Origin: Arthrobacter sp. StoSoilB5
Lineage (GTDB): Bacteria > Actinomycetota > Actinomycetes > Actinomycetales > Micrococcaceae
DNA: 64,000 bases
NCBI RefSeq assembly: GCF_019977235.1
Contig: NZ_AP024646.1
Span: forward strand, 2,418,001 to 2,482,000
Reading direction: 5' to 3'
The notes under the pieces were generated by a model that saw nothing but the letters and a program-made list of their open reading frames with translations, searched no databases and was not told the origin of the DNA. The position numbers were made by a program, and so were the translations under genes. Shown here piece after piece: positions 32,001-49,470 of this stretch; the first letter of the stretch is position 1, and each line of letters opens with the position of its first letter.

Positions 32001-32045
32001 GCTGGTGTGGACATTCGGGTCTTCGGATTCATGTGGGACTGGGCT

Positions 32046-33308
32046 TCAGACGAGGATGGTCAAGGGATTTTCGATGCGGGCCTTGAAGGCCTGCATCCAC
32101 TGGGCAGCGACGGCCCCATCGATGACCCTGTGGTCTGCCGAAAGAGTGCAGGTCATCACGGTGGCCACCGCCAGGGAACCATCGACGACGACGGCGCGTG
32201 GTTCAGCTGCCCCCACCGCGAGGATGGCTGACTGCGGCGGGTTGAGGATGGCGGAAAATTGCCGGGTGCCAAACATGCCCAAGTTGGTGACGGAGAAACT
32301 TCCACCGGTGAGTTCCTCTTGGCGGATCTTCCCGGCCTTTGCACGTTCCACGAAATCCCCGATCGCTGCGCTGACTGCGCTGAGCGACTGGCTGTCAACG
32401 GACCGGACTACCGGCGTCAGCAGCCCGCCGTCAACGGCAATTGCCACGGAAATATCGGCAGCGGTGTGCTGGAGCTGGGCTTCGTCGCTCCACGTGCAGT
32501 TGGCTGCCGGGGTGTCCAGCAGCGCGAGCCCAACGGCTTTGACGATGAGGTCGTTGACCGTAATCCGCCGGGTTGCGGATTCGTTGACCTGCTTACGGAG
32601 GGTAAGGAGTGCGTCCACCCGGACATCTGCTGTGAGGTAAAAGTGCGGAACGGTAGTTTTGGACTCAGTGAGGCGGCGGGAGATGGCCCTTCGCATCTTG
32701 GTGTGGGGAACGGCAATGACTCTGGTCGGGACATCCTGGGCCTTGGCCTGAACAGGGCCGGCTGCCGTAGGCTGGACCGGGACCATTTGTGCCGTCCAAT
32801 CCCGGGAGCTGTCCGCGCGGCCCGCGATGACTTGCTCAACATCGCGCCGAACGATTCTTCCCCCGGGGCCCGATCCGGGTATAACTGCAACGTCCACGTG
32901 GTTCTCCCTCGCCAGCCGGCGGGCGAGGGGGGAACTGAACCGGCGTTCGGCCTGTCGAGGTACCTCCGCCACCAGCACGGGGTTAGCACCATCGCTGTCC
33001 TCGGGAGCGGCGGCCGGTGTCTGCGTTCCAGCGTCCCGAAGGAATGTGACTACTTCCTCGTCCGTTTCACCAGAGGTCCTGATGACTAGAATCGGTGCGC
33101 CGACTTCGACGCTTGCTCCTTCCTCAACCAGCAGCCGGGCAACGACGCCGTGATGTTCGGCCGGTATTTCGACAGTCGCTTTCTCGGTTTCCACTTCGGC
33201 GATGGCATCTCCAACTTCAACGGTTTCACCTTCCTTCTTCAGCCAGCTGGACAACGTGGCCTCAAGGGCGTTGGCCATGACTTCAGGCATGTTCATTAGT
33301 GCGGGCAT
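32046..33308 (-). CDS. 2-oxoacid dehydrogenase E2, dihydrolipoamide acyltransferase
   Basis: 420-residue E2. N-terminal lipoyl domain with the lipoylated lysine in VETEKATVEIPAEH, a linker, an E3-binding domain (SSPLARRLARENHVDVAVIPG; GRIVRRDVEQ) and the C-terminal acyltransferase domain with FSVTNLGMFGTRQF and the active-site histidine in SADHRVIDG. It follows the fused E1 gene by 32 bases. It transfers an acyl group from E1 to CoA; substrate could be branched-chain 2-oxoacids, acetoin or pyruvate. No E3 gene is near, so E3 must come from elsewhere. Confidence 0.93.
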   Translation of the reverse strand: MPALMNMPEVMANALEATLSSWLKKEGETVEVGDAIAEVETEKATVEIPAEHHGVVARLLVEEGASVEVGAPILVIRTSGETDEEVVTFLRDAGTQTPAAAPEDSDGANPVLVAEVPRQAERRFSSPLARRLARENHVDVAVIPGSGPGGRIVRRDVEQVIAGRADSSRDWTAQMVPVQPTAAGPVQAKAQDVPTRVIAVPHTKMRRAISRRLTESKTTVPHFYLTADVRVDALLTLRKQVNESATRRITVNDLIVKAVGLALLDTPAANCTWSDEAQLQHTAADISVAIAVDGGLLTPVVRSVDSQSLSAVSAAIGDFVERAKAGKIRQEELTGGSFSVTNLGMFGTRQFSAILNPPQSAILAVGAAEPRAVVVDGSLAVATVMTCTLSADHRVIDGAVAAQWMQAFKARIENPLTILV

Positions 33309-33340
33309 TTCATGTCTCCCAAAAGTCTGTGGACGCTGAC

Positions 33341-35548: not shown

Positions 35549-35621
35549 GGCTGCTCCGGAGGGGTTGGCCGCTGAGATTGCGGCAATTTATGGGCTTAAG
35601 AGCCAACAATACAAGCCATAA

Positions 35622-35634
35622 TGTATCCAATACA
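35622..35634. promoter_or_regulatory. Candidate GntR operator upstream of the E1/E2 operon
   Basis: TGTATCCAATACA is a perfect inverted repeat (TGTAT-CCA-ATACA) about 74 bases before the E1 start. Its ATCCAATA core recurs at 36145-36165 and, inverted and imperfect, at 36211-36221, near the GntR gene and VOC gene. FCD-type GntR regulators bind such short palindromes. Confidence 0.5.
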
Positions 35635-35678
35635 AGACATCAAGGGCCTCTTTCTGTGGAATTTGCGACCTCCGGACC

Positions 35679-36110: not shown

Positions 36111-36144
36111 GACGGCTCCTTGTGGCCGGGCGGGCCGCCCGCAG

Positions 36145-36221
36145 CCAATATTGAATCCAATATTGCAGATTATTGGCAAATGTAGAAGGAAAATGTACTC
36201 ATTGCATGCATAATGGATTCA
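36145..36221. promoter_or_regulatory. Candidate GntR operator region in the divergent promoter
   Basis: CCAATATTG at 36145-36153 is repeated at 36157-36165 (the 4-base spacer between the CAATATTG units gives TTGAATCCAATA). An inverted near-copy, TAATGGATTCA, is at 36211-36221. The shared core with the 35622-35634 palindrome is (A/T)ATCCAATA. The region lies between the hypothetical membrane protein gene and the VOC/GntR genes, so it fits an autoregulated FCD-type GntR protein. Confidence 0.45.
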
Positions 36222-36242
36222 TTCGAGCACTAGGAGGCAGTT

Positions 36243-36773
36243 TTGCAGCGTGGAATACCCGGAGCGCAGGGTCTCGATCACGTCGGCTTCACGGTGCCGG
36301 ACCTGGACGAAGCGGAGAAGTTCCTGACCGAGGTCCTGGGCGCAACACTCATCTATACCTTGGGCGCCAAGCGTTCAGAGGATGATTGGATGAACGTCCA
36401 CATCGGCGTGCATCCGCGCACCGCGATCCGCGAAATTCGCTTCTATAGGCTTGGCAACGGTTCCAATTTGGAAGTCTTCCAGTACGACGCCGCCGAACCG
36501 CAGGCACGCCAACCCCGTAACAGCGACATTGGGGGCCACCACCTGGCCATCTACGTTGACGACATGGATGAGGCAGTGGCCTACCTTCACTCCTATGGGC
36601 TTGAAGTGATGGGTGAACCCACAGCAAGCGGGCAATCCGCCGAAGGCCAACGGTGGGTATATTTCCGGAGCCCATGGGGAATGCAGTTCGAACTAGTGAG
36701 CTTCCCAGGCGGCAAGGCCTACGAACGGGAGGCCCGCCTGCACCTGTGGCACCCCGGCCGCCCGGCAGAATAG
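36243..36773 (+). CDS. VOC (glyoxalase/bleomycin resistance) family protein
   Basis: 176-residue VOC protein with two beta-alpha-beta-beta-beta modules: LDHVGFTVPDLDEAEKFLTE and GHHLAIYVDDMDEAVAYL, ending GMQFELVSFPGG. Candidate metal ligands are the His of LDHV, the His of GHHLA and the Glu of FELVSF. The start is TTG 36243, supported by GGAGG at about 36232-36237. The gene precedes the GntR gene by six bases. The substrate is unknown; the 2-oxoacid dehydrogenase operon is divergent and shares candidate operators. Confidence 0.85.
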   Translation: MQRGIPGAQGLDHVGFTVPDLDEAEKFLTEVLGATLIYTLGAKRSEDDWMNVHIGVHPRTAIREIRFYRLGNGSNLEVFQYDAAEPQARQPRNSDIGGHHLAIYVDDMDEAVAYLHSYGLEVMGEPTASGQSAEGQRWVYFRSPWGMQFELVSFPGGKAYEREARLHLWHPGRPAE

Positions 36774-36778
36774 CAGGT

Positions 36779-37477
36779 ATGACTATCGAATCCACCACCC
36801 ATGGCAAAGCAGGCGCACGTGTGGCCGCAGCCATGCGCGAGGCAATCCTGGCCGGTACCTACAAGCCCGGCAGCCGGATCCGGCAGGAAGACGTGGCTGA
36901 ACGGTACGGTGCCAGCCGCGTGCCTGCCAGGGAAGCACTCCGGATGCTTGAGGCAGAAGGCCTGGTGAAGGTGGTCGCCAATACTGGCGCCTGGGTCACC
37001 AGTCTCAACCTCGTGGAGTGCGAGGAGATCTACCAGGTGCGTGAGCGGCTTGAACCGCTCCTGCTCCGCTACAACGTCCCGCTCCTTACTGCGCTCCAGA
37101 TCGAGGCATTGGACGGCCTGGCGCATGAGATGGAAACTGCTGGTGACGTGGAGACGTTCCTCCGCCTTGACCGGGACTTCCACCTTTCCTGTTACACCGC
37201 CGCCCAGACGATCATGCTGACGGACACGGTACTGCGGTTGTGGAACCGGACGCAGCCTTACAGGTGGGCCTACACCTCTGTTTTCCGTTCCGAGGGTGAT
37301 CGGAGCGCTCACCACGAGCACCATTTGCTCGTAGCCGCACTGCGTCGCCGCGATGCCGATGAGGCGGAACGCGTACTCACCTCGCACATCCGTCGCACCC
37401 GCCTTGAGCTGGCCCGGCATCCGGAAATCTTCGAAAACCCAGCTACTGCGCCGCCAGGCCTGGGGGACAACGACTGA
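36779..37477 (+). CDS. GntR family regulator, FCD type
   Basis: 232-residue regulator: winged HTH (AAAMREAILAGTYKPGSRIR, DVAERYGASRVPAREALRML) and an all-helical FCD ligand domain (EEIYQVRERLEPLLLRYN, DRDFHLSCYTAA, EHHLLVAALRRRDADEAERVL) with the usual His residues for metal/ligand binding. ATG 36779 is chosen because it begins the HTH domain properly. It is convergent with the PucR gene (gap of one base). It probably controls the VOC gene, itself and the E1/E2 operon. Confidence 0.92.
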   Translation: MTIESTTHGKAGARVAAAMREAILAGTYKPGSRIRQEDVAERYGASRVPAREALRMLEAEGLVKVVANTGAWVTSLNLVECEEIYQVRERLEPLLLRYNVPLLTALQIEALDGLAHEMETAGDVETFLRLDRDFHLSCYTAAQTIMLTDTVLRLWNRTQPYRWAYTSVFRSEGDRSAHHEHHLLVAALRRRDADEAERVLTSHIRRTRLELARHPEIFENPATAPPGLGDND

Positions 37478-37478
37478 C

Positions 37479-38777
37479 TCAGCCGTGTTCCTTCCCTGAT
37501 GCCGGGGAAAGATCGATCGTTTCTGCGAGGTAAAGTGCAGCCCAAAGAATCCCTTGCCGCTCCTTGACTCTGTGCCCCAACAACTCCTCTGCACGCCCAA
37601 TGCGGTATTTGATGGTGTTGTTCGCGACGCTCAGCTCTGCTGCGGCACCCGCGGGACTGCAGTTGTGTTCAAGGTAGACGCGAACTGTCTCACGCAGGGC
37701 CGCCTCCTTGGAGCCGGCGAGGGCACCCAACTCGTCTCGGGCAAAGCTGGCCGCCTTTGCGGGATCTGCGGTCAGCAGCACCGCAAACCGGACATCCTTG
37801 AAAAACACGGGTTCACTCCATGGCTTGCCGGCTGGCGCAAGCAGGGATACGTTGGCCGCGCTGACCGCTTCTTCATGGCTGCCGCGGAACCCCTCCAAAC
37901 CGGTTGCTGGACGCCCCACGGCAACGAGGGTGTGCGGGACGCCCTTGATAGCGGCCATGTTGACTGCTTTAGGCTCTAGAAAGGCACCCCAGGCCCACAC
38001 CTCGTGGTTGCCGGCCGGGAGCACAAGCTGCGCCGTGGCGCCCATGCGCGCCAACAACATCGCTGCTGCCCGATCAAGCCCTTCAACGGTTGCGTCGTCA
38101 CGGCCTTCGCGACGCAGGACCAGACCTACGTGGGTGCGGTTGGCGAGCTCGTACCGAAGTTTTGCACGGTCCGGACCCAGCGCCTCGCCCCGCAGCAGTG
38201 CGCGGACCAGTTCGGCACGCGAACCATCCACGCTTGCCAGCCACGCCTGCTCCTCAGCTGCATAGGCAGCACTGCTCGCCAGAGCAAACGTGCTGACGTG
38301 GTCAACAAGGAAGTGGGAGAGCTCAGCAAGTTCCTTTGACTGCATCTCGGCCGGGACAAGGCGCCGGAACTCTTCCACCAGCACGTCACTGAAACGCGCG
38401 TGGGAGACCCGCTGCACTTCGAGGATCTTGGCCAGCGACACCCGCTGCCTGACGGCACGGGCCGTCTGCAAAACCATTTCCAACGGAACAGTGGTGGGAA
38501 CGGGAACGCCCTGATCAAGGGCCAGCAGGGCCTCCATGACCACCGCTTCAGCAGGGGGACGCAACTCCTGTGTAGCTTCCTCCCGCCTGGTTGCGGGCGT
38601 CGCCGGGTCGACACCCAACTGCGCCAGTTCCAGCGATATTTCTACGGCCCACAAGGCCGCGTCCAGGCCGATACAGCCCACGGTCCTGTTCCAGGTGGCC
38701 GGCAGGCAGGCAGGCTTCAGGCGATCTGCAGACCCCGCAGGATGGAGATCCCGCACCCAGGATCTAGCTCTTGACAT
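37479..38777 (-). CDS. PucR/CdaR-type transcriptional regulator
   Basis: 432 residues from ATG 38777, chosen for GGGGGAAGGACAA upstream; the frame is open to 39008. It has an N-terminal helical sensory region, a GGDEF-like CdaR region, and a C-terminal PucR HTH (LRETVRVYLEHNCSPAGAAAELSV then NTIKYRIGRAEELLG). Such proteins activate catabolic operons for purines, amino acids or aromatics. It lies at the edge of the hydroxyquinol cluster, and a copy of the cluster's promoter box (38940-38965) sits upstream, so it is the best candidate activator. Confidence 0.88.
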   Translation of the reverse strand: MSRARSWVRDLHPAGSADRLKPACLPATWNRTVGCIGLDAALWAVEISLELAQLGVDPATPATRREEATQELRPPAEAVVMEALLALDQGVPVPTTVPLEMVLQTARAVRQRVSLAKILEVQRVSHARFSDVLVEEFRRLVPAEMQSKELAELSHFLVDHVSTFALASSAAYAAEEQAWLASVDGSRAELVRALLRGEALGPDRAKLRYELANRTHVGLVLRREGRDDATVEGLDRAAAMLLARMGATAQLVLPAGNHEVWAWGAFLEPKAVNMAAIKGVPHTLVAVGRPATGLEGFRGSHEEAVSAANVSLLAPAGKPWSEPVFFKDVRFAVLLTADPAKAASFARDELGALAGSKEAALRETVRVYLEHNCSPAGAAAELSVANNTIKYRIGRAEELLGHRVKERQGILWAALYLAETIDLSPASGKEHG

Positions 38778-38939
38778 TTGTCCTTCCCCCGCATCCTTGC
38801 GGGTTCCCGAACCATTCGGGACTAATGCGAGCACTATACGCGCCCGCTGGGCAAAGCTCATAGCACGCCTGGCGCGGGATTTGCCAGGCCTGAGTGAGCC
38901 TACTTCGCTTCTTTTTTTGGAGCGCCAACAGGTGTTGGT

Positions 38940-38965
38940 GGTTTTGGCGGGTAGGGGGCAAGCGG
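38940..38965. promoter_or_regulatory. Box A copy upstream of the PucR gene
   Basis: GGTTTTGGCGGGTA followed by GGGGGCAAGCGG. It matches box A found at 39891-39915 and 49035-49059 (one base longer in the middle). The companion box B is absent here. The rest of 38778-39180 shows no gene. Confidence 0.55.
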
Positions 38966-39180
38966 TGAAGCCGGGGGAGGGGGTAGCGTCAGTGCGCCCA
39001 AGGACCACGGCCCCACTATCACCGGACCAGGCCGGTTCGTTCCCTGGTCTTCGCCCCGCCCATCAATGCCCAGCAACAGCAACTCCGAGCCATAAGCCAG
39101 CGCATCATGAGGTGGTTGATCCTGAGGAACGCTGCCTCCGCTTACCCTGACCTCCCCTGGTCTGTTGCAGGTTGCACAGG

Positions 39181-39214
39181 AAAGTGGGCCGCAGGCATGC
39201 CCACGGCCCACTTT
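39181..39214 (-). terminator. Terminator of the VOC gene
   Basis: AAAGTGGGCCG at 39181-39191 pairs perfectly with CGGCCCACTTT at 39204-39214, 12-base loop. It lies just after the stop (39230) of the minus-strand VOC gene. Confidence 0.7.
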
Positions 39215-39229
39215 GTTGACGCCTTGGGA

Positions 39230-39709
39230 TCAGGGCGCCGCTTCCGGGTGCAGCTCAACTGCTGCCGTGAGGATGCCCTCCCAGGTGGTTTCGTTGAACT
39301 CAATGATGTTCCCGTCTGGGTCCTTGAGATAAACGAATCTTGCAGGGTCGCTGCTCCATGTGCCGGGATCGTGGACGCGCTGCCCACCAGCGGCCTCAGC
39401 GCGAACCAGAGCATCGTCCATGTTGTCTACGTGCAGGGCAAAATGCATGAACGAGGCTTGGGTCTGCGGGACACCGATTGTTGTGTTGGGTTCTGGAATG
39501 AACTGGAATAGTTCGATCCCGAACCCGTCAGGCAGTTCGATGTAGGCGATGACGTATTCGGTGTCCTTGACGCCGAAGAAGATCTCGGTCAGCTGAGGGT
39601 TGTTCGAGTAAGGGCGCAGGACCTCCTTCCCTCCAAGGGCCTCGACATAGAACTTCGTGGAGCGTGCGATGTCTGAGACCCGCACGGCCAAATGCTGGAC
39701 AGTCGCCAT
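39230..39709 (-). CDS. VOC family protein (glyoxalase-like)
   Basis: 159 residues: VQHLAVRVSDIARSTKFYVEALGG, FMHFALHVDNMDDALVRAEAAGG and DPDGNIIEFNETTWE. The His of QHLAV, the His of MHFAL and the Glu of IEFNE form a complete metal site. ATG 39709 overlaps by one base (TGATG) the stop of a 26-codon reading frame, indicating coupling. It is divergent from the flavin reductase operon of the hydroxyquinol cluster. VOC proteins include isomerases, dioxygenases and lyases; the role here is unknown. Confidence 0.9.
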   Translation of the reverse strand: MATVQHLAVRVSDIARSTKFYVEALGGKEVLRPYSNNPQLTEIFFGVKDTEYVIAYIELPDGFGIELFQFIPEPNTTIGVPQTQASFMHFALHVDNMDDALVRAEAAGGQRVHDPGTWSSDPARFVYLKDPDGNIIEFNETTWEGILTAAVELHPEAAP

Positions 39710-39789
39710 CAGAGCGCTCCTCTGGCGCCGTGTTCGTGCAGGCCAGAGGCTTGCACGGGTGCTTGGTTCGGAAGATCTCCATTGACCAT
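39709..39789 (-). CDS. 26-residue leader ORF coupled to the VOC gene
   Basis: ATG at 39789 with GGAGAAAGG upstream, 26 codons (MVNGDLPNQAPVQASG ...), stop overlapping the VOC start as TGATG. Too short for family recognition. The good ribosome binding site and the overlap suggest it is translated, as a coupling leader or a small protein. Confidence 0.4.
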   Translation of the reverse strand: MVNGDLPNQAPVQASGLHEHGARGAL

Positions 39790-39890
39790 CGTGTTGGTAC
39801 CTTTCTCCATGTTCGCCAAGATCGGCTTCGTTTCATGATGGGGCCCCCGTCCGGGGCCCCGCTTGCCTTCCCGGGCCAAAGGGCCGTCTC

Positions 39891-39952
39891 GGTTTTGGCT
39901 GGTAAGGGCAAGCGGCATGGGCGCCGACAGAGTTGACTGGGTCACACTTTCC
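39891..39952 (+). promoter_or_regulatory. Bipartite promoter element (boxes A and B) of the flavin reductase operon
   Basis: Box A is 39891-39915 (GGTTTTGGCTG ... GGGCAAGCGG) and box B is 39932-39952 (GTTGACTGGGTCACAC and five more bases). Both recur, in the same order and orientation relative to the gene, upstream of the monooxygenase gene at 48997-49059. The downstream leader is also conserved (GGACGAGATGGAGCC against GGACGAGGTGGAACC). The distance from box B to the start codon is 51 bases in both. TTGACT in box B may serve as a -35 hexamer. Confidence 0.75.
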
Positions 39953-40003
39953 GATGCTCGGCACAAGGCCGGACGAGATGGAGCCCAGAGAAGGGAACCG
40001 ACG

Positions 40004-40594
40004 ATGACGTCGAACCAGGCAATCAACAACGAAGTGGACCAGAGCCCTGCCGCCACCGCGCTCGTCCCGGACGGTCAGCTGCTGGAAGGCATCTCGCCCG
40101 ACGAATTTCGGCTGGCTTTCCGCAACCATGCGGCCGGCGTGGCTATTATCACGGCCGACGCCGGGGACGGTCCAGTCGCCATGACGGCGACGTCCGTGTT
40201 CTCTGTCAGTGCGACGCCGCCGTTGCTGGTGTTCTCGGTGTCGTCGCTGTCTTCCGCGACGCCGACCATCCTGCGGTCCTCATCGCTGGTGGTCCACCTG
40301 CTTGACACGACGAATATTGCCTTGGCACGCCTCTGCTCCACGAGTGGGGTGGACCGGTTCGCCGATCAGGATACCTGGGACGTCCTGCCGACGGGGGAGC
40401 CATACTTCGTGGAGCCGCCTGTGCGTATCCGGGGCGAGGTGGTGAATACCTATGAGGCCGGCATGTCACGCCTGGTGGTGGTCAACGTTACACACGCCAC
40501 ATCGCCCGGGGCCGACGTCGAAACCCTCAACGCACCTCTGGTCTACCACAGCCGTAAGTGGCTGGCCCTGGACCGGACGGCCGCCCTCGCCTGA
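40004..40594 (+). CDS. Flavin reductase of a two-component monooxygenase (HpaC-like)
   Basis: 196-residue FMN/FAD reductase of the flavin_reduct family: FRNHAAGVAIITADAGDGP, AMTATSVFSVSATPPLLVFS, VHLLDTTNIALARLCSTSG and a terminal YHSRKWLAL. ATG 40004 with AAGGGAACCG upstream; the conserved 51-base spacing to box B supports it. It would supply reduced flavin to the acyl-CoA-dehydrogenase-fold monooxygenase at 47704-48945, which has the same promoter elements although 7 kb away. Confidence 0.9.
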   Translation: MTSNQAINNEVDQSPAATALVPDGQLLEGISPDEFRLAFRNHAAGVAIITADAGDGPVAMTATSVFSVSATPPLLVFSVSSLSSATPTILRSSSLVVHLLDTTNIALARLCSTSGVDRFADQDTWDVLPTGEPYFVEPPVRIRGEVVNTYEAGMSRLVVVNVTHATSPGADVETLNAPLVYHSRKWLALDRTAALA

Positions 40595-40719
40595 CCACTA
40601 CGTGGGTCTTCCAGGTGTCATGACTCAAAAGCTCGCTAGTTTCCATCCCGAGGGTCCCGTCGGGGCGCCTCAATACCAGATACAACGTGCACTGACATGA
40701 CAAAGGAGTCGTGAAGATT

Positions 40720-42048
40720 ATGCAGGACAAAGAAATTGTTGTGCTGGACGAATCCAGGTCGGCGGCGAGTGGGCTCACAGAAGCCGCGCCGCCCGCACTC
40801 AGCGTCCGCGACGGAGCGGCTGTGCCGCAGGAACCGGTCTCGGGCCTGTGGATGGCCCTGTACACCTTGGCGAACATTGGTTACTGGCTTGCCGTTATCA
40901 CTCCTGGAGTGATAGCGCTTCCGCTCAAGGTGACCAGCCTGGTGGGTTCGGAACAGGCTCCTGCTGCATTGGGGATCGTTGCAGCTGCGGGACCGGCCAT
41001 TGCGCTGATCGCCACCCCGGTTTTCGGCAGGCTCAGTGACCGCACCACCTCACGGCTCGGGCGTCGTCGGCCCTACCTGCTCCTCAATCCGCTCATTGGC
41101 GTGGTGGGGGCTGTGATGGGTGGCCTGGCACCGAACATCGCAGTTCTGGCCGTCGGGTACGGGCTGTTGGCGATCGGTTTCACCGGTTCGTTCGGCGCGC
41201 TGGCGCCTGTGGTGGCAGACCGTGTCCCTGTCAATCAGCGTGGCCTCGTCTCCGGCCTGATCGGCATCAGCGTTCCCGTGGGGCTCGTCGGCGGAACCTT
41301 TGTGGTGCAGTACATCGCCACGGACCCGCTGTTGCCGCTGGCCGTTCCGGCAGCTATGGGCGCCATCCTGATAATCATGTTCGGCGTCCATATGAAGGAT
41401 GCACGGCTGGCACCGGAGTCCCGGCCGGCGGCGTCATGGCGGAGCCTGCCGGCAACCTTCTGGGTCAATCCGCGCCGCTATCCTGATTTCGCCTGGGCAT
41501 GGTGGGGAAGGGCGCTGCTCCTCCTTGCTTATGCCCTCCTGACTCTGTACCAGACCTTCTTCCTCATTGACCGGCTGGGCATCCCGGCCTCTGAAGTGGC
41601 CAACTATGTGTTCCTGTCCATGCTCGTCCTGTCTGTGACCATGGTGGCCTCTAGCATCATCGGCGGACGCCTCAGCGATGTGATGGAACGCCGCAAGCCA
41701 TTCATCATCGGCTCTGCCGTGATCTACGGCGCCGCCCTCCTGGTGATCGCGACATCCACCACCTTCACCCAGTTCCTGATTGGAATAGCCATTACCGGGT
41801 TGGGCAACGGCGCCTACACCGCGGTGGATGCTGCCCTGGCCACCCAGGTACTCCCCAATCCGGACGACACGGCAAAGGACCTGGGCGTATTCAACATCGC
41901 CGCCACGTTTCCAAACGCAGCAGCGCCCGCCATCGCTCCGCTGATCCTTGCCATCGGCGGCGGAAACTACACCGTGCTCTTCGCCGTGGCCGGTGGCATT
42001 GCCATCATCAGCGCCCTGGCGATCGTCCCTATCAAGGGCGTCCGCTAG
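40720..42048 (+). CDS. MFS transporter
   Basis: 442-residue, 12-TM major facilitator. The cytoplasmic motif A between TM2 and TM3 is GRLSDRTTSRLGRRRPY, repeated in the second half as GGRLSDVMERRKPF. ATG 40720 is chosen over GTG 40711 because of the spacing to AAAGGAG. It lies in the hydroxyquinol operon and probably imports the aromatic substrate; it resembles the GPH/sugar-like or aromatic acid porters, and no substrate can be assigned. Confidence 0.88.
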   Translation: MQDKEIVVLDESRSAASGLTEAAPPALSVRDGAAVPQEPVSGLWMALYTLANIGYWLAVITPGVIALPLKVTSLVGSEQAPAALGIVAAAGPAIALIATPVFGRLSDRTTSRLGRRRPYLLLNPLIGVVGAVMGGLAPNIAVLAVGYGLLAIGFTGSFGALAPVVADRVPVNQRGLVSGLIGISVPVGLVGGTFVVQYIATDPLLPLAVPAAMGAILIIMFGVHMKDARLAPESRPAASWRSLPATFWVNPRRYPDFAWAWWGRALLLLAYALLTLYQTFFLIDRLGIPASEVANYVFLSMLVLSVTMVASSIIGGRLSDVMERRKPFIIGSAVIYGAALLVIATSTTFTQFLIGIAITGLGNGAYTAVDAALATQVLPNPDDTAKDLGVFNIAATFPNAAAPAIAPLILAIGGGNYTVLFAVAGGIAIISALAIVPIKGVR

Positions 42049-42155
42049 GCTCCTGCGCAGATCAGCCACGGGCTGAGCCGCACTCCTGGATATCGATACG
42101 CCTGTACCACCAGAAAATCACCCGAGTGACGGGTTGATTGTTGAAAGGAAAAATT

Positions 42156-42860
42156 GTGACTGATCGAAACATTGTTGTTGTTGGAGGCACCAGCGGCATC
42201 GGTCTTGAACTGAGCCGCAGGATTGTGGCACGGGGAGACAAAGTGATCCTGACCGGCCGCGACGCTACGCGGGCAGAAGATGTTGCAGCGTCCCTGGGGC
42301 CAAACGCCACCGGCATCAGTGTTGACCTGGCGTCGCCGCATACCATTGCCGAAAGTGTGGCCTCCGTAGGGGAAGTCCACGGATTAGTGCTCTCCGCCGT
42401 GGAACGCGACTCAAACACGGTCCGCGACTTCAGCATTGACAAGGCCGGCCGCCTCGCAACCCTGAAACTTGTGGGGTACCTGGAGACCATCCATGCCCTG
42501 ATCGGACGGATCGAAGAAACGGTGGATACGGGGATCGTGCTCATGGGCGGAATCGCCAGGTACCGCCCCTACCCCGGTTCGTTGACGGTATCCACGGTCA
42601 ACGGTGGCGTTGAAGGGATGGCCACCGCCCTTGCCGCAGAGCTTGCTCCAGTCCGCGTGAACGTCCTCCACCCGGGCATCATCGGCGACAGCCCATTCTG
42701 GGAAGACAAGACCGGCGCACTCGACGCATACCGCTCGCGGACCCCCGGCGGTGAGCTCCCAACGGTAGAGGACGTGGTGGAATCAACCCTGTTTCTCCTC
42801 GACAACAAGGGCGTCTCGGGAACCACCCTCCACGTCAACCGCGCCACCCTGACCACGTGA
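42156..42860 (+). CDS. SDR-fold protein lacking the usual catalytic residues
   Basis: 234-residue Rossmann protein. The nucleotide-binding TGxxxGxG-type motif is present (VVGGTSGIGLELSRR) and the C-terminal region VRVNVLHPGIIGDSPF fits SDR proteins. The catalytic YxxxK motif, expected just before VEGMATALAAELAP, is replaced by a stretch reading GSLTVSTVNGG, and the usual Ser strand reads IVLMGGIARY. So the Ser/Tyr/Lys triad is missing. GTG 42156 is the start (AAAGGA upstream). It may be a binding or isomerase-like protein rather than a reductase. Confidence 0.85.
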   Translation: MTDRNIVVVGGTSGIGLELSRRIVARGDKVILTGRDATRAEDVAASLGPNATGISVDLASPHTIAESVASVGEVHGLVLSAVERDSNTVRDFSIDKAGRLATLKLVGYLETIHALIGRIEETVDTGIVLMGGIARYRPYPGSLTVSTVNGGVEGMATALAAELAPVRVNVLHPGIIGDSPFWEDKTGALDAYRSRTPGGELPTVEDVVESTLFLLDNKGVSGTTLHVNRATLTT

Positions 42861-42881
42861 GCCCCATTGCGGACAGTCACC

Positions 42882-42908
42882 TGCTGCGGCCGTCCGATGG
42901 CCGCAGCA
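42882..42908 (+). other. Intercistronic hairpin
   Basis: TGCTGCGGCC (42882-42891) and its complement GGCCGCAGCA (42899-42908) with a 7-base loop, between the SDR-fold and M24-fold genes. No T-run follows, so it is more likely an mRNA stability or processing element than a terminator. Confidence 0.5.
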
Positions 42909-42933
42909 CCCAACGATCTTTCAGGAGAACTCA

Positions 42934-44316
42934 ATGAAGAGTACCGGCACCACCGGAACCAACGCCGTTGACTGGGAAGCCAGGGTGGACTTCGACCGGC
43001 TGCGCGATGAACGCCTGGGACGCCTCAAAGCAGAACTGGCCGCGTCCGAGCTCGGTGCGGTCCTCGCCTTTGACTTCTCCAACATCCGGTATATGAGCTC
43101 CACCCACATCGGGACGTGGGCGGTCGACAAGCTCATCCGCTTCTCCCTGCTCACCCGCAACACCGACCCCATTGTGTGGGACTTCGGTTCGGCAGCCAAA
43201 CACCACAGGATCTACAACCCCTGGCTGGACACCACTACCGCCGAGATGGACGCAAACCCCGATGCCCCGCACGAAGGCGCCAAACGGCCCCGCCTGGAAA
43301 GTGGTGCCCGGGCCGGAATCTCGACCCTCCGCGGCGCCTTTCCGCCGGATGCGCAGATGGCCGAAAAAGTAGCCAGGAAGATCAAGCGCGAGTTGGAGAA
43401 GTTCGGCCTGGCCAACGAACCGCTTGGTGTTGACGTGATCGAGTTGCCCATCCTGTTTGCCCTGCAGCACGAGGGCATACGCGTGGTGGACGGCCAACAG
43501 GTGTTTATGGAGGCGCGGCGGGTCAAGACCCACGACGAGATCCGCCTACTCACTCAGGCCGCCTCCATGGTGGACGCCGCCTATGAGGAGCTCTACCGGT
43601 TCCTCCGACCAGGGGTTCGCGAAAACGAGGCCGTGGGACTGGTGGCAAAGACCCTCTATGACCTGGGCTCCGAGTACGTCGAAGGGGTGAACGCGATCTC
43701 AGGTGAGCGTTGCTCGCCGCACCCCCACGTGTTCTCCGACCGCCTGATCCGGCCGGGCGACCCGGCATTTTTTGACATCCTTCACAGCTACAACGGCTAC
43801 CGCACCTGCTACTACCGCACATTCGCGGTGGGCTCGGCCAGTTCGGCGCAACGAGATGCCTACACCAGGGCACGTGAGTACATGGACAAGGCCATCGCCC
43901 TCGTGAAGCCAGGCGCCACCACTGCGGACGTCGTGGCCGTGTGGCCCACCGCGCAGGAGTTCGGTTTCGAGAATGAGGAGGCCGCCTTCGCGCTGCAGTA
44001 CGGACATGGTGTGGGGCTCTCGATTTGGGAGAAGCCAATTTTCTCGAGGCTGACCTCCCTGGACCACCCCGAGGTGCTGCAGGAAGGCAACGTCTTCGCC
44101 CTCGAAACCTACTGGCCTTCCGCAGACGGGTGGGGCGCTGCCCGCATCGAGGAGGAAGTGGTGGTCACGGCCACGGGCTGCGAAGTCATCACAAAGTTCC
44201 CGGCGGAGGAACTGCTGGTGGCCGGAAAGCGGTACTACACCATTGGTGGCCCGCTCAACCTGGAGCGCGACTCGCAGTCGCACCTCAACACCACCTGGGG
44301 CCGGGGCGAGGCGTGA
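42934..44316 (+). CDS. M24-fold (creatinase/Xaa-Pro peptidase family) protein with a changed metal site
   Basis: 460 residues: N-terminal creatinase_N-like domain (about 1-230, FDFSNIRYMSSTHIG) and C-terminal pita-bread M24 domain. In M24 metallopeptidases the ligands are Asp, Asp, His, Glu, Glu. Here the first Asp (FFDILHSYNGYR) is present, the second (normally in CSD.TRTF) is replaced, reading TCYYRTF, while His (YGHGVGLSIWE) and the two Glu (VFALETYWP, RIEEEVVV) remain. M24-fold enzymes include the metal-free creatinase and the DMSP lyase DddP, so a non-peptidase reaction on a small molecule is plausible. Its stop overlaps the next start (GTGA). Confidence 0.88.
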   Translation: MKSTGTTGTNAVDWEARVDFDRLRDERLGRLKAELAASELGAVLAFDFSNIRYMSSTHIGTWAVDKLIRFSLLTRNTDPIVWDFGSAAKHHRIYNPWLDTTTAEMDANPDAPHEGAKRPRLESGARAGISTLRGAFPPDAQMAEKVARKIKRELEKFGLANEPLGVDVIELPILFALQHEGIRVVDGQQVFMEARRVKTHDEIRLLTQAASMVDAAYEELYRFLRPGVRENEAVGLVAKTLYDLGSEYVEGVNAISGERCSPHPHVFSDRLIRPGDPAFFDILHSYNGYRTCYYRTFAVGSASSAQRDAYTRAREYMDKAIALVKPGATTADVVAVWPTAQEFGFENEEAAFALQYGHGVGLSIWEKPIFSRLTSLDHPEVLQEGNVFALETYWPSADGWGAARIEEEVVVTATGCEVITKFPAEELLVAGKRYYTIGGPLNLERDSQSHLNTTWGRGEA

Positions 44317-45182
44317 CCACTCTGGGTTTCCTTGGCCTGGGGTCCATGGGATCCGGCATTGCCCGACGCCTTCTCGACGCCGGGCACGACGTGATCGTAT
44401 GGAATCGCTCTCCCGGTGCGGCTGACCAATTGGTGGCCGCGGGCGCCCGACGGGCTCAACAGCCCGCCGGGGCCCTCGCGGCCGGGGTGTCATTCTCTAT
44501 GCTCGCCAATGACAAGGCTGTACTGTCCATCCTTGATGAGTCAGCCATCCGCTCACTGGCAGGCCGCACGCACGTGGTCATGGCCTCGATCAGTCCTTCG
44601 TTGGCAGACCGACTCGCCGCTGCCTTCGACTCGGCGGGGGCTACCTACGTGGCCGCACCGGTCCTCGGCCGTCCCGATGTGGCAGCGGCCGGCCAGCTGA
44701 ACATCCTGGCGGCCGGGCGGCCCACTGCGTTGGACCAGGTGCGGCCCTATTTTGACGTCATGGGTAAGCGGACATGGCAGATCAGCGACAGGCCTTCGGT
44801 GGCAAATGCCGTCAAAGCTTCGGTAAATTACAACATCATCCATGCCCTGCAGGCCATGGGCGAGACGGTGGCCATGGTTGAGCGCCAAGGCGTGGATCCG
44901 GGGCTCTTCACTGAGTTGCTGTCCAGCACACTATTTGGCGGTGTCGTCTATACCGGCTATGGGGACCTAATCGCCCGGGGCGACTACACACCACCGGGGT
45001 TTCAGATGGCCCTGGGGCGGAAGGACCTGGGGCTTGCCGAGGAAGTGGCTGCTGCCAGTGGTGTGGCGCCCGCGACACTGCCAGCGCTCAAAGCCGTCTT
45101 CGACCGCGCCCTCGCGGACCCTATTCTGAAGGAATCCGACTGGAGTGCCATAGCCGAAGTTTCGCGCCAAAACCTGCTGTAA
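44313..45182 (+). CDS. NAD(P)-dependent beta-hydroxyacid dehydrogenase-like protein
   Basis: 289-residue member of the 3-hydroxyisobutyrate dehydrogenase/6PGDH family. N-terminal LGFLGLGSMGSGIARRLLDAG binds NAD(P); the substrate loop region reads VAAPVLGRPDVAAAG, and the catalytic lysine is in VANAVKASVNYN. GTG 44313 overlaps the stop of the M24-fold gene. It is close to the GLYR/SSA-reductase and imine-reductase-like part of the family, so substrate prediction is not possible. It is translationally coupled with the M24-fold gene, suggesting consecutive steps. Confidence 0.88.
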   Translation: MTTLGFLGLGSMGSGIARRLLDAGHDVIVWNRSPGAADQLVAAGARRAQQPAGALAAGVSFSMLANDKAVLSILDESAIRSLAGRTHVVMASISPSLADRLAAAFDSAGATYVAAPVLGRPDVAAAGQLNILAAGRPTALDQVRPYFDVMGKRTWQISDRPSVANAVKASVNYNIIHALQAMGETVAMVERQGVDPGLFTELLSSTLFGGVVYTGYGDLIARGDYTPPGFQMALGRKDLGLAEEVAAASGVAPATLPALKAVFDRALADPILKESDWSAIAEVSRQNLL

Positions 45183-45222
45183 CACCGGAATCATCGATAT
45201 CCTTACTGAAGGAACCGCCGTA

Positions 45223-46314
45223 ATGAGCCTCGCTTTTGACCATGAAATCCTCGCCCAACGGGTACTTTTCGGAACAGGCACTGCCGCCGCCCGGCTTACC
45301 AGCGAGGTTGCCCGGCTGGGCGCGTCCCGGGTCATGGTGATCGCTTCGAAAGCCGAATCCGAACTGGCCACATCCACCGCCGCTGGAATCGACGTCGTTC
45401 TTTGGCACCACGATGTGGTGATGCACGTTCCGGCCGCGACGGCGGAGAAGGCTCGGGCCGCGGCCCTTGAGTACGCGATCGACCTGGTTGTCTGCATCGG
45501 CGGCGGCTCGACGACTGGACTCGCCAAGGCGGTGGCCCTCACCACGGGATTGCCCATCATCGCTGTGCCCACCACCTACGCCGGGTCAGAGGCGACCAAT
45601 GTATGGGGACTGACGGAGGAGTCCAGGAAAACAACGGGGGTAGACCCGAAAGTCCTGCCCGTTGCCGTGATCTACGATGCAGCCCTGACCCTGTCCCTGC
45701 CGGGGGCAATGTCCATAGCCTCCGGACTCAACGGCTTGGCGCACTGCATCGACTCCTTATGGGCTCCGCGGGCCGACCCCATCAACGCTGCCCTGGCAGC
45801 TGAAGGCATCCGCGCCCTCGGGCGGGGGCTGCCGCGCATTGCCCAGGATTCCCATGACCTGGAAGGACGCGAGCAGGCACTGTACGGGGCGTACCTCTCC
45901 GCCGCCGCGTTCGCCTCCGCAGGATCCGGATTGCACCACAAGATCTGCCACGTCCTGGGCGGGACCTTCGACCTCCCGCACGCCCAGACGCATGCAACGG
46001 TCCTGCCCTACGTGCTGGCCTTCAACGCCCCGCAGGCACCCGGCGCAGCAGCAAGAATCGCTGCTGCGTTTGGCGTGTCCGGGACCGGCGCGGAGGATGC
46101 CTTGGCCGGGCTGCAGCACCTCCGCTCCCGCCTGGACGCCCCCAACTCCCTTGCTGAGTATGGCTTCAGGGCTGACGGGATCGCAGACGCAGTGCAGATC
46201 ATCCTTCCGACTGTCCCGGCGTCCAATCCCCGTCCCGTCACGGCGGAAAACCTTAGCGCCCTCCTTGAAGCTGCGCTGACCGGAGAACGCCCCGAAGCAC
46301 TCCTCACGGCGTGA
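45223..46314 (+). CDS. Maleylacetate reductase
   Basis: 363-residue iron-alcohol-dehydrogenase-family enzyme. [17 protein letters not shown] and [14 protein letters not shown] are typical of maleylacetate reductases; the metal-region histidines are in [22 protein letters not shown] and [12 protein letters not shown]. It reduces maleylacetate, produced by hydroxyquinol ring cleavage, to 3-oxoadipate. It lies directly before the ring-cleavage dioxygenase gene, a standard pairing. ATG 45223 with a purine-rich GAAGGAACC upstream. Confidence 0.93.
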
Positions 46315-46352
46315 CGGACCAGCACCCCACTTTCCAAACTTCAGGAGGAACA

Positions 46353-47267
46353 ATGTCTGAACCCACCGTCCAGCACCACAGCATCAGCCCCGAGCAGGAG
46401 GCGGTGGAACAGGAACTTGTGGATACGGTCGTCGCGTCCTTTGAGAACACCGAGGATTCCCGGCTGCGGATGCTCATGCAGTCCCTGACCAGGCACCTTC
46501 ATGACTTTGTCCGTGAGGTTAGGCTGACCGAGGACGAGTGGACCGCTGCGATCGGCTTCCTTACGGCCGCCGGCCATATCACCGATGACCGACGACAGGA
46601 ATTCATCCTGCTCTCCGACGTCATGGGCCTGTCCATGCAGACGATTGCCATCAACAACCAGACCTACAGGAACGCCACCGAGGCCACGGTGTTCGGACCG
46701 TTCTTCACGCAGGATTCTCCGGAAATTCCGTGGGGAGGGGACATTGCCTGCGGCGCCCATGGCCAACCGTGCTGGGTTGAGGGCACGGTCAGGGATGTTT
46801 ACGGCAGTCCCGTCCCGCGGGCACGGGTGGAGGTATGGGAGGCAGATGAAGACGGCCTCTATGACGTCCAGTACGCCGACGGACGCACTGCGGGCCGGGC
46901 TCATCTCCATACCGATGCCCAAGGAGTGTACGGTTTTTGGGGTCTGACGCCCACACCGTATCCGATCCCTCACGATGGACCGGTGGGTGGATTGCTGGCG
47001 GCCACCAACCGCTCGCCCTTCCGTGCTTCGCACCTGCACTTCATGGTCACCGCACCGAACCTGCGCACGCTTGTTACCCATATATTCGTCCGGGGGGACC
47101 CGCAGATTGAAACCGGCGACTCCGTCTTTGGCGTCAAGGAATCCCTGATCATGGAATTTGTTGAACAACCTGCCGACGCACCCACACCTGACGGGCGCCA
47201 TCTCCAAGGCCAGACCTGGAGCAGGACGCGATTCGACATCACACTCGCGCCGGCGGCTGTCGGATGA
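46353..47267 (+). CDS. Hydroxyquinol 1,2-dioxygenase (intradiol)
   Basis: 304-residue intradiol ring-cleavage enzyme. N-terminal helical dimerisation domain (residues 1-110), then the beta-sandwich with the Fe(III) ligands: a Tyr in [16 protein letters not shown], the second Tyr in [10 protein letters not shown] or nearby, and two His in [25 protein letters not shown] and the subsequent signature fit the hydroxyquinol rather than catechol subgroup. ATG 46353 has AGGAGG upstream; an upstream in-frame start at 46311 is less likely. It converts hydroxyquinol to maleylacetate. A strong terminator follows. Confidence 0.93.
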
Positions 47268-47302
47268 CGTACGTGGGCGGTGGATGAGGGTCACAGATAA
47301 CG

Positions 47303-47341
47303 CCGAGCGGCCGCCTTCATCGAAGGAAGGCGGCCGCTCGG
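47303..47341 (+). terminator. Rho-independent terminator of the hydroxyquinol operon
   Basis: 15-bp perfect stem (CCGAGCGGCCGCCTT at 47303-47317 and its complement at 47327-47341), 9-base loop, then TCTTAT. 36 bases after the dioxygenase stop. Confidence 0.85.
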
Positions 47342-47392
47342 TCTTATCAAGCTGAGGCTCCGTGCTTTTTTTGGGTACTGCAGCACCCGGAA

Positions 47393-47608
47393 TCAGGCCC
47401 GCTGGCAGGGATCCAACGGCTCGTGCCGGTGGTGGGGCCCGAACTCGTGCCGGTAGTGCAGCCCAATCCAGGGCGAGGCAATGAGCTCGTCGATGTCTGC
47501 TCCCTGCAAGGGCGGCGCCGGCGTTTCGAGTGCGTGGTGCGCCTCCGCCACGCTGGATCGGATTGCTGTGGGAAGGGTGTTGCCTGGCTGTATGCGGTGC
47601 TTGAGCAT
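47393..47608 (-). CDS. Small hypothetical protein
   Basis: 71 residues, His- and Pro-rich C-terminus (GLHYRHEFGPHHRHEPLDP). ATG 47608 has AGAAAGAGAAGGAC upstream. It lies 95 bases after the monooxygenase gene on the same strand, so it could be co-transcribed. No family recognised. The His cluster might bind metal; this is a guess. Confidence 0.45.
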   Translation of the reverse strand: MLKHRIQPGNTLPTAIRSSVAEAHHALETPAPPLQGADIDELIASPWIGLHYRHEFGPHHRHEPLDPCQRA

Positions 47609-47703
47609 GTCCTTCTCTTTCTTCTAGGTAGCGGAGGCAGCTGCCCGCCGCCAGCGCGTGCCAGGCATAGCGGCGGGAGGCACCTGGTACGGCATGGGGT
47701 TCT

Positions 47704-48945
47704 TTACTGCGGTGGGAGGTTGAAGTGGGCCTGGGCGAGCATCTGGCCGATGTGGGGGCGGTGTTCGGCTGTCTGGGCGCGGGACATCTGGGTGGCCAGG
47801 AAGTAGTCCTGCAGGGGAACTCCCTTCTGGGAAACGGAGGATCCTACGGAGCGGAAGAGGAGTTCCGTAGCTTCGTGAGCCAGCCGTGAGGCGGCGTACA
47901 GCATGTTGCCCAGGGCCAACCAGTCTTCAGTGGCGGCGGGTTTGCCATTCGCACCTTGTTCTCCGAGGTGGGCGTAGTCGCGTGCCGCGGTGAGGACCAC
48001 TGCCTGTGCGGCGTCGATGATGCCGCGGGCTTCACCGTAGATGACCTGGGTTTCGGGGTGCTTATAGCGTTCGATCTGCGGGGGGTAAAGCCGCTTTTTG
48101 GTAAGGATGGTTTCCTCGAACGCGTCCAGCGCGGCACGGGCCGCGCCCACCTGCACGCAGGCCAGGGAGGCGGCATACAGGGGCTGGATGTTGCCCACGT
48201 AGAGGGGGTTCTCGGTGGAAGCGGTTCCGTGGGTTCCCTGGGGGTAGTTGGCTGTGCTCCAGTCGAACGGGGAAGTTCTGGCAGCGGGGACGAATACCTC
48301 GGTCAATTCAACAGTGTTGGATCCGCTGGCGCCCAGGGCCATCGTCATGTGGGCCCCCCAGTCGTCGCGGACAATGTAGTCCTCCCGGGGCAGCAGGGCC
48401 ACGATCATGGCCATTTCACCGCTCTCAGTGGTGGTCACTGCGGTGACCATGGCGTGCGTCGAATGGGCCACTCCCGAGGAGTACGGCCATACGCCTGTCA
48501 GCAGGTAGCCGCCTTCCACGGGGGTGGCCATGCCGCGGGGGCTGGCCGAGTGGGGGGCGATGAAAAGTCCATCCGAACCAAAGGCCTCCCGGACCACCTC
48601 TTCAGGGTAGTGGGCGACCAATGGAATAGTGTGTCCCGTACCCAGGGTCAGGCACCAACCAATGCCGGGGTCTCCGCGGGAGATCTCCATCATCACCCGG
48701 TAGTAAGTTTCCAGGCTGAATTCGTAGCCCCCGTACTGGCGGGGCTGAACCAGACGGTAAAAGCCGGCCCGGTCAAACGCCTCGTGGAGCTCGACGGAAT
48801 ACGCCCCCTCCTCGGCGGCTTTCAGCCGGTTTTCCCGCAGGACCGGTCGCATGGCCGCGGCACGGGCAATAACCTGGTCCGCTGTCAGATCCGGCTCCGG
48901 CACACGTAAACCGGCGAAGACAGCGGCTCCTTGATTCGACGTCAT
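47704..48945 (-). CDS. Flavin-dependent monooxygenase, acyl-CoA dehydrogenase fold (oxygenase component)
   Basis: 413-residue group D flavoprotein monooxygenase. FDRAGFYRLVQPRQYGGYEF, ISRGDPGIGWCLTLGTGH, GGYLLTGVWPYSSGV and DDWGAHMTMALGASGSNTVEL follow the HsaA/HpaB-C2/resorcinol hydroxylase pattern; the CoA-binding features of true dehydrogenases are missing. ATG 48945 is chosen over 48951 because of spacing to GGAAGGG and because it gives the same 51-base box B distance as the reductase gene. With the reductase at 40004 it probably hydroxylates a phenol to hydroxyquinol (as GraA/GraD do with resorcinol in Rhizobium), an inference. Confidence 0.85.
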   Translation of the reverse strand: MTSNQGAAVFAGLRVPEPDLTADQVIARAAAMRPVLRENRLKAAEEGAYSVELHEAFDRAGFYRLVQPRQYGGYEFSLETYYRVMMEISRGDPGIGWCLTLGTGHTIPLVAHYPEEVVREAFGSDGLFIAPHSASPRGMATPVEGGYLLTGVWPYSSGVAHSTHAMVTAVTTTESGEMAMIVALLPREDYIVRDDWGAHMTMALGASGSNTVELTEVFVPAARTSPFDWSTANYPQGTHGTASTENPLYVGNIQPLYAASLACVQVGAARAALDAFEETILTKKRLYPPQIERYKHPETQVIYGEARGIIDAAQAVVLTAARDYAHLGEQGANGKPAATEDWLALGNMLYAASRLAHEATELLFRSVGSSVSQKGVPLQDYFLATQMSRAQTAEHRPHIGQMLAQAHFNLPPQ

Positions 48946-48996
48946 CGTCATTCCCTTCCATTCGGTTCCACCTCGTCCAGCCTCATGCCAGGCGAA

Positions 48997-49059
48997 GGAA
49001 AGTGTGACCCAGTCAACACCGCTCCAGCACCTCGCCGCTTGCCCCCATCAGCCAAAACC
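48997..49059 (-). promoter_or_regulatory. Bipartite promoter element (boxes A and B) of the monooxygenase gene
   Basis: On the minus strand box A is at 49059-49035 (22 of 25 bases equal to 39891-39915) and box B is at 49017-48997, identical over 21 bases to 39932-39952. Spacing between boxes is 17 bases (16 in the other copy). The boxes read toward the monooxygenase gene. Confidence 0.75.
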
Positions 49060-49167
49060 AGCGCCAACCTTTGTCCTCCACAGGCAAGCGGCGGCGCTGC
49101 CCAACACGGCATCCTTAATAAGGCAGCTGCGGCGAATCCAGGCTCAACCAAACCAAAGGAAAAAGGC

Positions 49168-49470
49168 ATGTCCACGATCGTCCATTTTGAGATTCACATC
49201 GATCCCGCCAAACTCGGCGAAGCCCCACGAGTGCTGCGTGAAACCTTGGCGGCAACCCGCGCCTGGCCAGGCAATGAGGGACTGGAAGTTTTGACGGACA
49301 ACGCCGATCCCTGCCACATCGTGGTGGTCGAGAAATGGTCCAGCACGCAGGCGCATGACAGCTACTCCGAATGGCGCACTACACCGGCTGGCAAAAATGA
49401 CCTGGGTACCATCCTGGCCGCCCCGCCAGCCTTGCAGCGCTACTCCAACGCCACTCCCCTGGGCATCTAG
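49168..49470 (+). CDS. Antibiotic biosynthesis monooxygenase (ABM)/YgiN-like protein
   Basis: 100-residue dimeric ferredoxin-like fold protein: IVHFEIHIDPAKLGEAPRVLR, RAWPGNEGLEVLTDNADP, HIVVVEKWSSTQAHDSYSEW. ATG 49168 with AAAGGAAAAAGG upstream. ABM-domain proteins include cofactor-less quinol monooxygenases and are common in aromatic clusters; here it is divergent from the flavin monooxygenase and may handle quinol/quinone forms of hydroxyquinol (inference). Confidence 0.85.
   Translation: MSTIVHFEIHIDPAKLGEAPRVLRETLAATRAWPGNEGLEVLTDNADPCHIVVVEKWSSTQAHDSYSEWRTTPAGKNDLGTILAAPPALQRYSNATPLGI

Follow-up and report, generated by a model that had tools for sequence, protein, structure and literature searches.

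A maleylacetate reductase-hydroxyquinol dioxygenase gene pair set behind genes of a widespread M24-type module in Arthrobacter sp. StoSoilB5

We describe here a gene island in Arthrobacter sp. StoSoilB5, whose 5.3 Mb genome is a single contig. The island lies in a 64,000-nucleotide stretch of this contig (NZ_AP024646.1, positions 2,418,001 to 2,482,000; hereafter the window), and in it the genes for a maleylacetate reductase (MAR) and a hydroxyquinol 1,2-dioxygenase (HQD) directly follow those for an M24-fold enzyme (M24) and a beta-hydroxyacid-dehydrogenase-like protein (bHAD). The other products are a short-chain dehydrogenase/reductase-fold protein (SDR), an oxygenase of acyl-CoA-dehydrogenase fold (ACAD), a flavin reductase (FR), a major facilitator superfamily (MFS) transporter, two proteins of the VOC superfamily (VOCa and VOCb), PucR- and GntR-type regulators, an ABM-domain protein, and the E1 and E2 components of a 2-oxo acid dehydrogenase complex (Table 1). 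The initial annotation had outlined a hydroxyquinol-terminating cluster at 37479..49470. Every gene that it named there is present with family-level domain support, but the left edge of that cluster cuts off E2, E1, VOCa and GntR; two VOC proteins do exist, as it stated, but the gene of one of them, VOCa, falls outside. Because these four genes are frequent partners of M24 elsewhere, we place the unit at approximately 32046-49470. Gene starts were picked from upstream context, and the PucR start at 39008 is favoured since the protein aligns with its homologue on locus L008 of Microbacterium psychrotolerans from residue 3 (55.5% identity over residues 3-504).

The plus-strand run SDR-M24-bHAD-MAR-HQD has successive gaps of 73, -4, 40 and 38 bp, the negative value being a 4-base overlap that bears out the earlier description of M24 and bHAD as a coupled pair. 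FR and MFS lie upstream of this run, 116 bp apart, and MFS ends 107 bp before SDR. ACAD, on the minus strand, is convergent with HQD, and a 16-pair hairpin lies between the two. Across the region, sites resembling terminators and promoters are about as numerous as chance predicts (14 against 13.7 expected and 3 against 3.3, respectively), and the assignment of this hairpin as a transcription end therefore rests on the length of its single stem.

Table 1. Features of the island, with window coordinates and the domain or other evidence for each.
Feature	Coordinates	Strand	Support
E2, 2-oxo acid dehydrogenase acyltransferase	32046..33308	-	2-oxoacid_dh, Biotin_lipoyl, E3_binding
E1 alpha-beta fusion, 2-oxo acid dehydrogenase	33341..35548	-	E1_dh, Transket_pyr, Transketolase_C
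VOCa, VOC-superfamily protein	36243..36773	+	Glyoxalase_4
GntR/FCD regulator	36773..37477	+	GntR and FCD
PucR-type regulator	37479..39008	-	HTH_30
VOCb, VOC-superfamily protein	39230..39709	-	Glyoxalase 3.1e-16
FR, flavin reductase	40004..40594	+	Flavin_Reduct 1.3e-27
MFS transporter	40711..42048	+	MFS_1 9.3e-29
SDR-fold protein without YxxxK	42156..42860	+	adh_short
M24-fold enzyme, Cys292 at metal-ligand Asp position	42934..44316	+	Peptidase_M24 1.4e-39
bHAD, beta-hydroxyacid-dehydrogenase-like protein	44313..45182	+	NAD_binding_2 1.1e-30, NAD_binding_11
MAR, maleylacetate reductase	45223..46314	+	Fe-ADH, ADH_Fe_C
HQD, hydroxyquinol 1,2-dioxygenase	46353..47267	+	Dioxygenase_N 1.1e-28, Dioxygenase_C 2.3e-29
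HQD-ACAD intergenic hairpin, 16 pairs, likely end of transcription	47303..47341	.	stem length
ACAD-fold flavin-dependent monooxygenase (HsaA/C2-HPAH class)	47704..48951	-	Acyl-CoA_dh_N, Acyl-CoA_dh_2
ABM-domain protein	49168..49470	+	ABM 6.4e-09

The MAR-HQD segment (45223-47267) has the features of the standard lower pair of hydroxyquinol catabolism. HQD carries both the N and C domains of intradiol dioxygenases and has a 70% identical relative in Rhodococcus opacus PD630 that is annotated as hydroxyquinol 1,2-dioxygenase, and MAR ends 38 bp ahead of it. Homology thus supports the lower route originally read here, predicted to lead from hydroxyquinol via maleylacetate to 3-oxoadipate. Further to the left, at 3719-6330, we recognized by eye the paired genes of a 3-oxoacid CoA-transferase and, from a pcaF-model match that falls short of the cut-off, a thiolase whose gene is divided between two frames. 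These genes could carry 3-oxoadipate onward, but the thiolase looks broken; across the genome the pcaF model finds no thiolase above cut-off and 15 matches below it.

To place M24, we scanned the GTDB species collection once for relatives of the protein and obtained 445 stretches confirmed to encode one. The comparison set comprises the best 80 of these loci and six plasmid regions (n = 86; many flanks are short), and matches covering less than 40% of the query were discarded, here as in the HQD comparison below. Within this set the partners are bHAD (65 loci), VOCa (48), E1 (47), GntR (44), E2 (36) and SDR (29), with bHAD, E1, GntR and VOCa all present in 39. The pattern is similar at 50% identity or above (bHAD 45, VOCa 46, E1 45, GntR 43, SDR 29, E2 16) and among the 56 loci with more than 9 kb on both sides (bHAD 47, VOCa 40, E1 39, GntR 36, E2 32, SDR 24). 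In 34 of the 86, bHAD shares the strand of M24 and is no more than 150 bp away from it. Judged from these neighbourhoods, M24 and bHAD, in some loci with SDR, are part of a widespread uncharacterised actinobacterial module. No HQD or MAR occurs in any of the 86 loci, contrary to the expectation that the M24 set would accompany hydroxyquinol genes in other genomes.

Clustering of reading frames from the 86 loci and the window piece (n = 87; partner names partly assigned by eye) adds XRE-cupin regulators (56), sugar-type ABC transporter ATPases (46), Zn-dependent alcohol dehydrogenases (44), an amidohydrolase (32) and a ketopantoate-reductase-like protein (26). Roseobacter homologues of M24 (52-56% identical) stand with E1 and E2 components, succinate-semialdehyde dehydrogenase and polyol-type SDRs in the four regions inspected. 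The sugar-type transporters, alcohol dehydrogenases and amidohydrolase, together with the roseobacter E1 and E2 components, succinate-semialdehyde dehydrogenase and polyol-type SDRs, point to a small non-aromatic substrate. The surroundings of SDR and bHAD on five plasmid segments indicate no clear substrate.

The reciprocal comparison used 22 other HQD loci, namely 14 of the 17 class-level matches at 61% identity or above (G199, G216 and G222 being left out), 4 of 11 from M24-carrying genomes and four plasmid regions. MAR is found in 19 of the 22, against none of the 86 M24 loci (p = 2e-18), whereas M24, SDR, GntR and VOCa are each absent from all 22; the earlier view that M24 and SDR are foreign to other hydroxyquinol clusters is thus supported for the clusters examined. 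E1 shows the opposite distribution to MAR (47/86 M24 loci and 1/22 HQD loci, p = 9e-6); the single E1-like match beside HQD is weak (35-39%), and at 55% identity or above the counts are 45/86 and 0/22. The window MFS protein has no homologue in either locus set. At the level of whole genomes, for which 50 of the 80 non-plasmid M24 loci were chosen and 49 genomes covered (L027 was left out), HQD occurs in 8 of the 49; for the class the count is 39 of 394 genomes, StoSoilB5 itself among them, a difference that is not significant (p = 0.21). Taken together, the reciprocal locus counts and the genome counts indicate that, across the genomes examined, MAR-HQD and the M24 module occur independently of each other. 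On these counts we reject a conserved hydroxyquinol pathway that includes M24. Likewise, since HQD neither accompanies M24 nor is enriched in M24-carrying genomes, the M24 set does not constitute an intrinsic upper route towards hydroxyquinol. What had been described as one hydroxyquinol pathway with odd partners thus keeps its MAR-HQD lower pair, but the M24 partners are a separate module, and the doubt that the initial annotation cast on these partner genes was well placed. A megablast of 32000-50000 against plasmids returned MAR matches in two records and no other match. In Arthrobacter sp. MI7-26, locus L160 (9208-14336) holds MAR-HQD with a 50% identical bHAD paralogue and ABC transporter genes nearby, and no M24; from this locus, the bHAD family may have a link of its own to hydroxyquinol clusters.

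Within the genus, M24 is rare: it is found in 5 of 150 genomes (E <= 1e-60), and at more than 80% identity only in StoSoilB5 itself and G148. Herbiconiux homologues, by comparison, are 93% (M24), 77-79% (bHAD) and 80-83% (GntR) identical to the window proteins, and the M24 module was likely acquired horizontally from a Microbacteriaceae-like source. Two other loci of the genus, L167 and L168, carry a less similar M24 (53%) accompanied by homologues of GntR, VOCa and E1, and each match contains one in-frame stop.

The island also encodes an ACAD-fold oxygenase and, in a separate gene, a flavin reductase, the two parts of a two-component phenol monooxygenase of the HsaA/C2-HPAH class. The best NCBIfam model for ACAD is HsaA (150 bits against a cut-off of 450), so that the class fits and the HsaA equivalog does not. 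Searches of 150 genomes of the genus, 394 of the class and 396 of the order (E <= 1e-60, 1e-80 and 1e-90, respectively) found ACAD in StoSoilB5 alone, and plasmids gave no match to the protein at 60% identity or above (341 records). The sole close homologue among the M24 loci, 67% identical, is in Microbacterium psychrotolerans QXD-8, in which 12 of the window genes lie together within approximately 19 kb: M24 (91%), FR (84%), SDR (73%), VOCa (72%), bHAD (70%), ACAD (67%), GntR (67%), E1 (66%), VOCb (66%), PucR (55-61%), E2 (49%) and ABM (42%). The FR homologue is on L165, beside L008 and just beyond its 10 kb flank. The SDRs of the two organisms have a loop variant in common that is found in none of the other 26 homologues. 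The M. psychrotolerans genome contains no HQD match (E <= 1e-40); PF00775 matches only two neighbouring genes there, which we read as protocatechuate 3,4-dioxygenase. In M. psychrotolerans, which has the 12-gene set and no HQD, the M24 module is thus accompanied by ACAD, FR, PucR, VOCb and ABM, and MAR-HQD is what the window adds. By this comparison, the module and the ACAD/FR genes with PucR, VOCb and ABM form one set present in both organisms, and MAR-HQD is an extra, set directly behind bHAD in StoSoilB5.

The set common to the two organisms may extend further left: at 24056-27139 of the window an aldehyde dehydrogenase gene adjoins one for a DAO-family oxidoreductase, and its product is 65% identical to one on L164 of M. 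psychrotolerans that stands beside an amine-oxidase-like gene (named by eye). To the right of the island there is a second E1 alpha/E1 beta/E2 operon (55584-58906), with E1 alpha and E2 both divided between two frames. It adjoins an IS30-like transposase gene (58976-60145).

Two enzymes of the module have altered active sites. We take Asp281, Cys292, His358, Glu391 and Glu406 of M24 to be the positions of the prolidase metal ligands (Asp, Asp, His, Glu, Glu); four of these residues are kept, but Cys292 aligns with the second Asp. The cysteine is invariant in all 31 sequences of alignment A1 (the window protein and 30 of the 80 non-plasmid relatives) and in six further homologues down to 54% identity, and since Cys could itself serve as a ligand, the site may still bind metal. 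An AlphaFold model of M24 (mean pLDDT 65.6, pTM 0.69, from a shallow alignment) has the DMSP (dimethylsulfoniopropionate) lyase DddP as its best fold match (E 2.3e-20, TM 0.66, rmsd 7.6) and prolidases next; creatinase and ectoine hydrolase also appear within the top 25 matches. The altered ligand and the small-molecule enzyme at the top of this list, although prolidases follow, led us to reject an ordinary peptidase. We likewise reject membership of the DddP lyases. DddP also provides the best NCBIfam model, but at 106.4 bits against a cut-off of 600, and its metal ligands (Asp295, Asp297, Asp307, His371, Glu406 and Glu421) are described as invariant in the available text of PMC4108388, whereas M24 has Cys292, as placed via the prolidase alignment, at a metal-ligand Asp position. 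In SDR, Val and Asn replace the Tyr and Lys of the YxxxK motif, both in the window protein and in all 27 homologues, with the positions checked against classical SDRs from the same loci. The protein had been called catalytically atypical from the outset; it lacks the classical active site and is probably not a classical dehydrogenase.

A further setting of the M24-bHAD-SDR core is linked to sulfonamide degradation: in Microbacterium sp. BR1, Paenarthrobacter sp. R1 and M. lacus SDZm4 it follows sad-type monooxygenase and reductase genes and RidA; the genes of the three loci are nearly identical, and we count them as one event. According to the available text of PMC5693940, the sad monooxygenases release 4-aminophenol from sulfonamides, and the BR1 genes are named as far as a yjgF-family regulator. 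In the main texts searched, of sad papers and related ones, an M24 gene next to sad is nowhere mentioned. As in the window, ACAD-fold monooxygenases and a flavin reductase adjoin the core. However, the oxygenases are 26-31% and the reductase 44% identical to those of the window, which are thus not sad orthologues; RidA and lpdA stand beside M24; and there is no MAR or HQD within the flank. At such low oxygenase identity the resemblance is one of architecture. An uncultured Propionibacterium metagenome-assembled genome (L035, 6333-13038) has two ACAD-fold oxygenases, a flavin reductase, RidA, M24, bHAD and SDR in a row. One oxygenase is 82%, RidA 79% and the reductase 52-53% identical to their counterparts in the sad loci, and L035 is a probable natural relative of the sad cluster. 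Since its sad-like genes are followed by M24-bHAD-SDR, an M24-bearing cluster looks to be a natural setting of sad relatives.

Other systems resemble the island in part. The GraABCD cluster for resorcinol and gamma-resorcylate includes an amidohydrolase-family decarboxylase and an oxygenase component of the HpaB type. HQD, MAR and a two-component hydroxylase are common to GraABCD and the window, but the window oxygenase has the ACAD fold and is not HpaB-type, and the genes tested between 32 and 50 kb gave no Pfam match to an amidohydrolase-family decarboxylase; on both counts we reject membership. Plasmid pACHL02 of Pseudarthrobacter chlorophenolicus A6 carries MAR and HQD 65-78% identical to those of the window (HQD 78%), with a flavin reductase nearby, but its monooxygenases are HpaB-type and FAD-dependent, and the region has no M24, SDR or bHAD homologue. 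In the anaerobic phloroglucinol pathway, the available text of PMC10470551 describes the order SDR, C-C hydrolase, hydroxyacid dehydrogenase. This is the order of enzyme types in the window, by analogy only: in the same source the hydrolase belongs to the 'cyclase' family and the dehydrogenase is of the 3-hydroxyacyl-CoA type, and we reject a phloroglucinol-type route by homology. We found no published description of the gene set or of an M24 catabolic cluster in the literature searched, in keeping with its initial designation as undescribed.

We tentatively favour, at just under an even chance, a composite island acting on a shared conjugated substrate, with an HsaA-like monooxygenase sending the phenolic ring to hydroxyquinol and the M24 module handling another fragment. 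The MFS protein would take up a substituted phenolic, and ACAD with FR would hydroxylate the ring and help to free the substituent, giving hydroxyquinol. HQD would open this to maleylacetate, which MAR would reduce to 3-oxoadipate. M24, as a small-molecule hydrolase or lyase of DddP/creatinase-like rather than peptidase type, would split the freed non-aromatic fragment, bHAD would oxidise the product to a 2-oxo acid, and E1/E2 with an E3 encoded elsewhere would turn this into an acyl-CoA. The main rival, which we consider unlikely, is that the genes are accidental neighbours, MAR-HQD having been inserted behind bHAD for an unrelated phenol while the M24 module and the monooxygenase set serve a substrate of their own, so that the arrangement has no metabolic meaning. 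The mutual absence of MAR-HQD and M24 from each other's loci (0/86 and 0/22), the M. psychrotolerans set without HQD and the nearby IS30-like transposase are all what this would predict. It is harder to reconcile with the position of the insertion, which lies on the same strand 40 bp behind bHAD, leaves 38 bp between MAR and HQD and precedes the hairpin, as joint expression would need, and with the ACAD/FR class being one that hydroxylates phenols. A dedicated upper route, in which a larger phenolic loses a side chain or ring substituent to M24, SDR and bHAD and is then hydroxylated to hydroxyquinol, was the original proposal and seems to us less likely still. The operon-like layout of SDR-M24-bHAD-MAR-HQD, the M24-bHAD-SDR core beside the sad monooxygenases and the phloroglucinol order of enzyme types (in the text available for PMC10470551) speak for it; the failure of the M24 core and HQD to co-occur elsewhere, the lack of an ACAD- or FR-like gene near most M24 loci and an SDR without YxxxK speak against it. 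The broader idea of substituent cleavage from a larger phenolic gains some weight from M. psychrotolerans, where monooxygenase, reductase and M24 set stand side by side, and from the sad clusters.

Several observations weigh against a shared conjugated substrate. Hydroxyquinol as the product of ACAD is an inferred step, and MAR-HQD could be a passenger. The 12-gene set is known from one other genome only, that of M. psychrotolerans, and monooxygenase-like neighbours are a minority among the 86 M24 loci (ACAD-like in 7, FR-like in 6). The FR-like genes inside those loci are just 40-46% identical to the window protein, below the 51-52% of FR-like genes in two of the 22 HQD loci, one of which also has a 28% identical ACAD-like gene; FR could, on these identities, be an old partner of HQD. 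There is also the 50% bHAD homologue near MAR-HQD in Arthrobacter sp. MI7-26 (1/22 HQD loci). Finally, the M24 model is of moderate confidence, and residues 354-368 around His358 have pLDDT values below 50.

There is also a wider proposal, which we hold more loosely still. The M24 loci may represent a widespread, undescribed module of Actinobacteria and roseobacters for a small compound of polyol or oxo type, combining a Cys-site M24 hydrolase or lyase with a 2-oxo acid dehydrogenase complex, and in some actinobacteria with an SDR that lacks YxxxK. Two-component flavin monooxygenases would have recruited it at least twice for the mineralisation of substituted phenols or anilines: in the lineage from which the sad clusters arose, and in the island described here, which gained hydroxyquinol cleavage as well. 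Stretches encoding a relative of the M24 enzyme number 445, so that the module is common, yet we found no assigned substrate in the literature searched. Its repeated tie to flavin monooxygenases offers a route to that substrate and may explain the genes carried along with the sad cluster. The change at the M24 metal site has been kept from Microbacteriaceae to roseobacters, and a single protein suffices to test for new chemistry in a well-studied fold.

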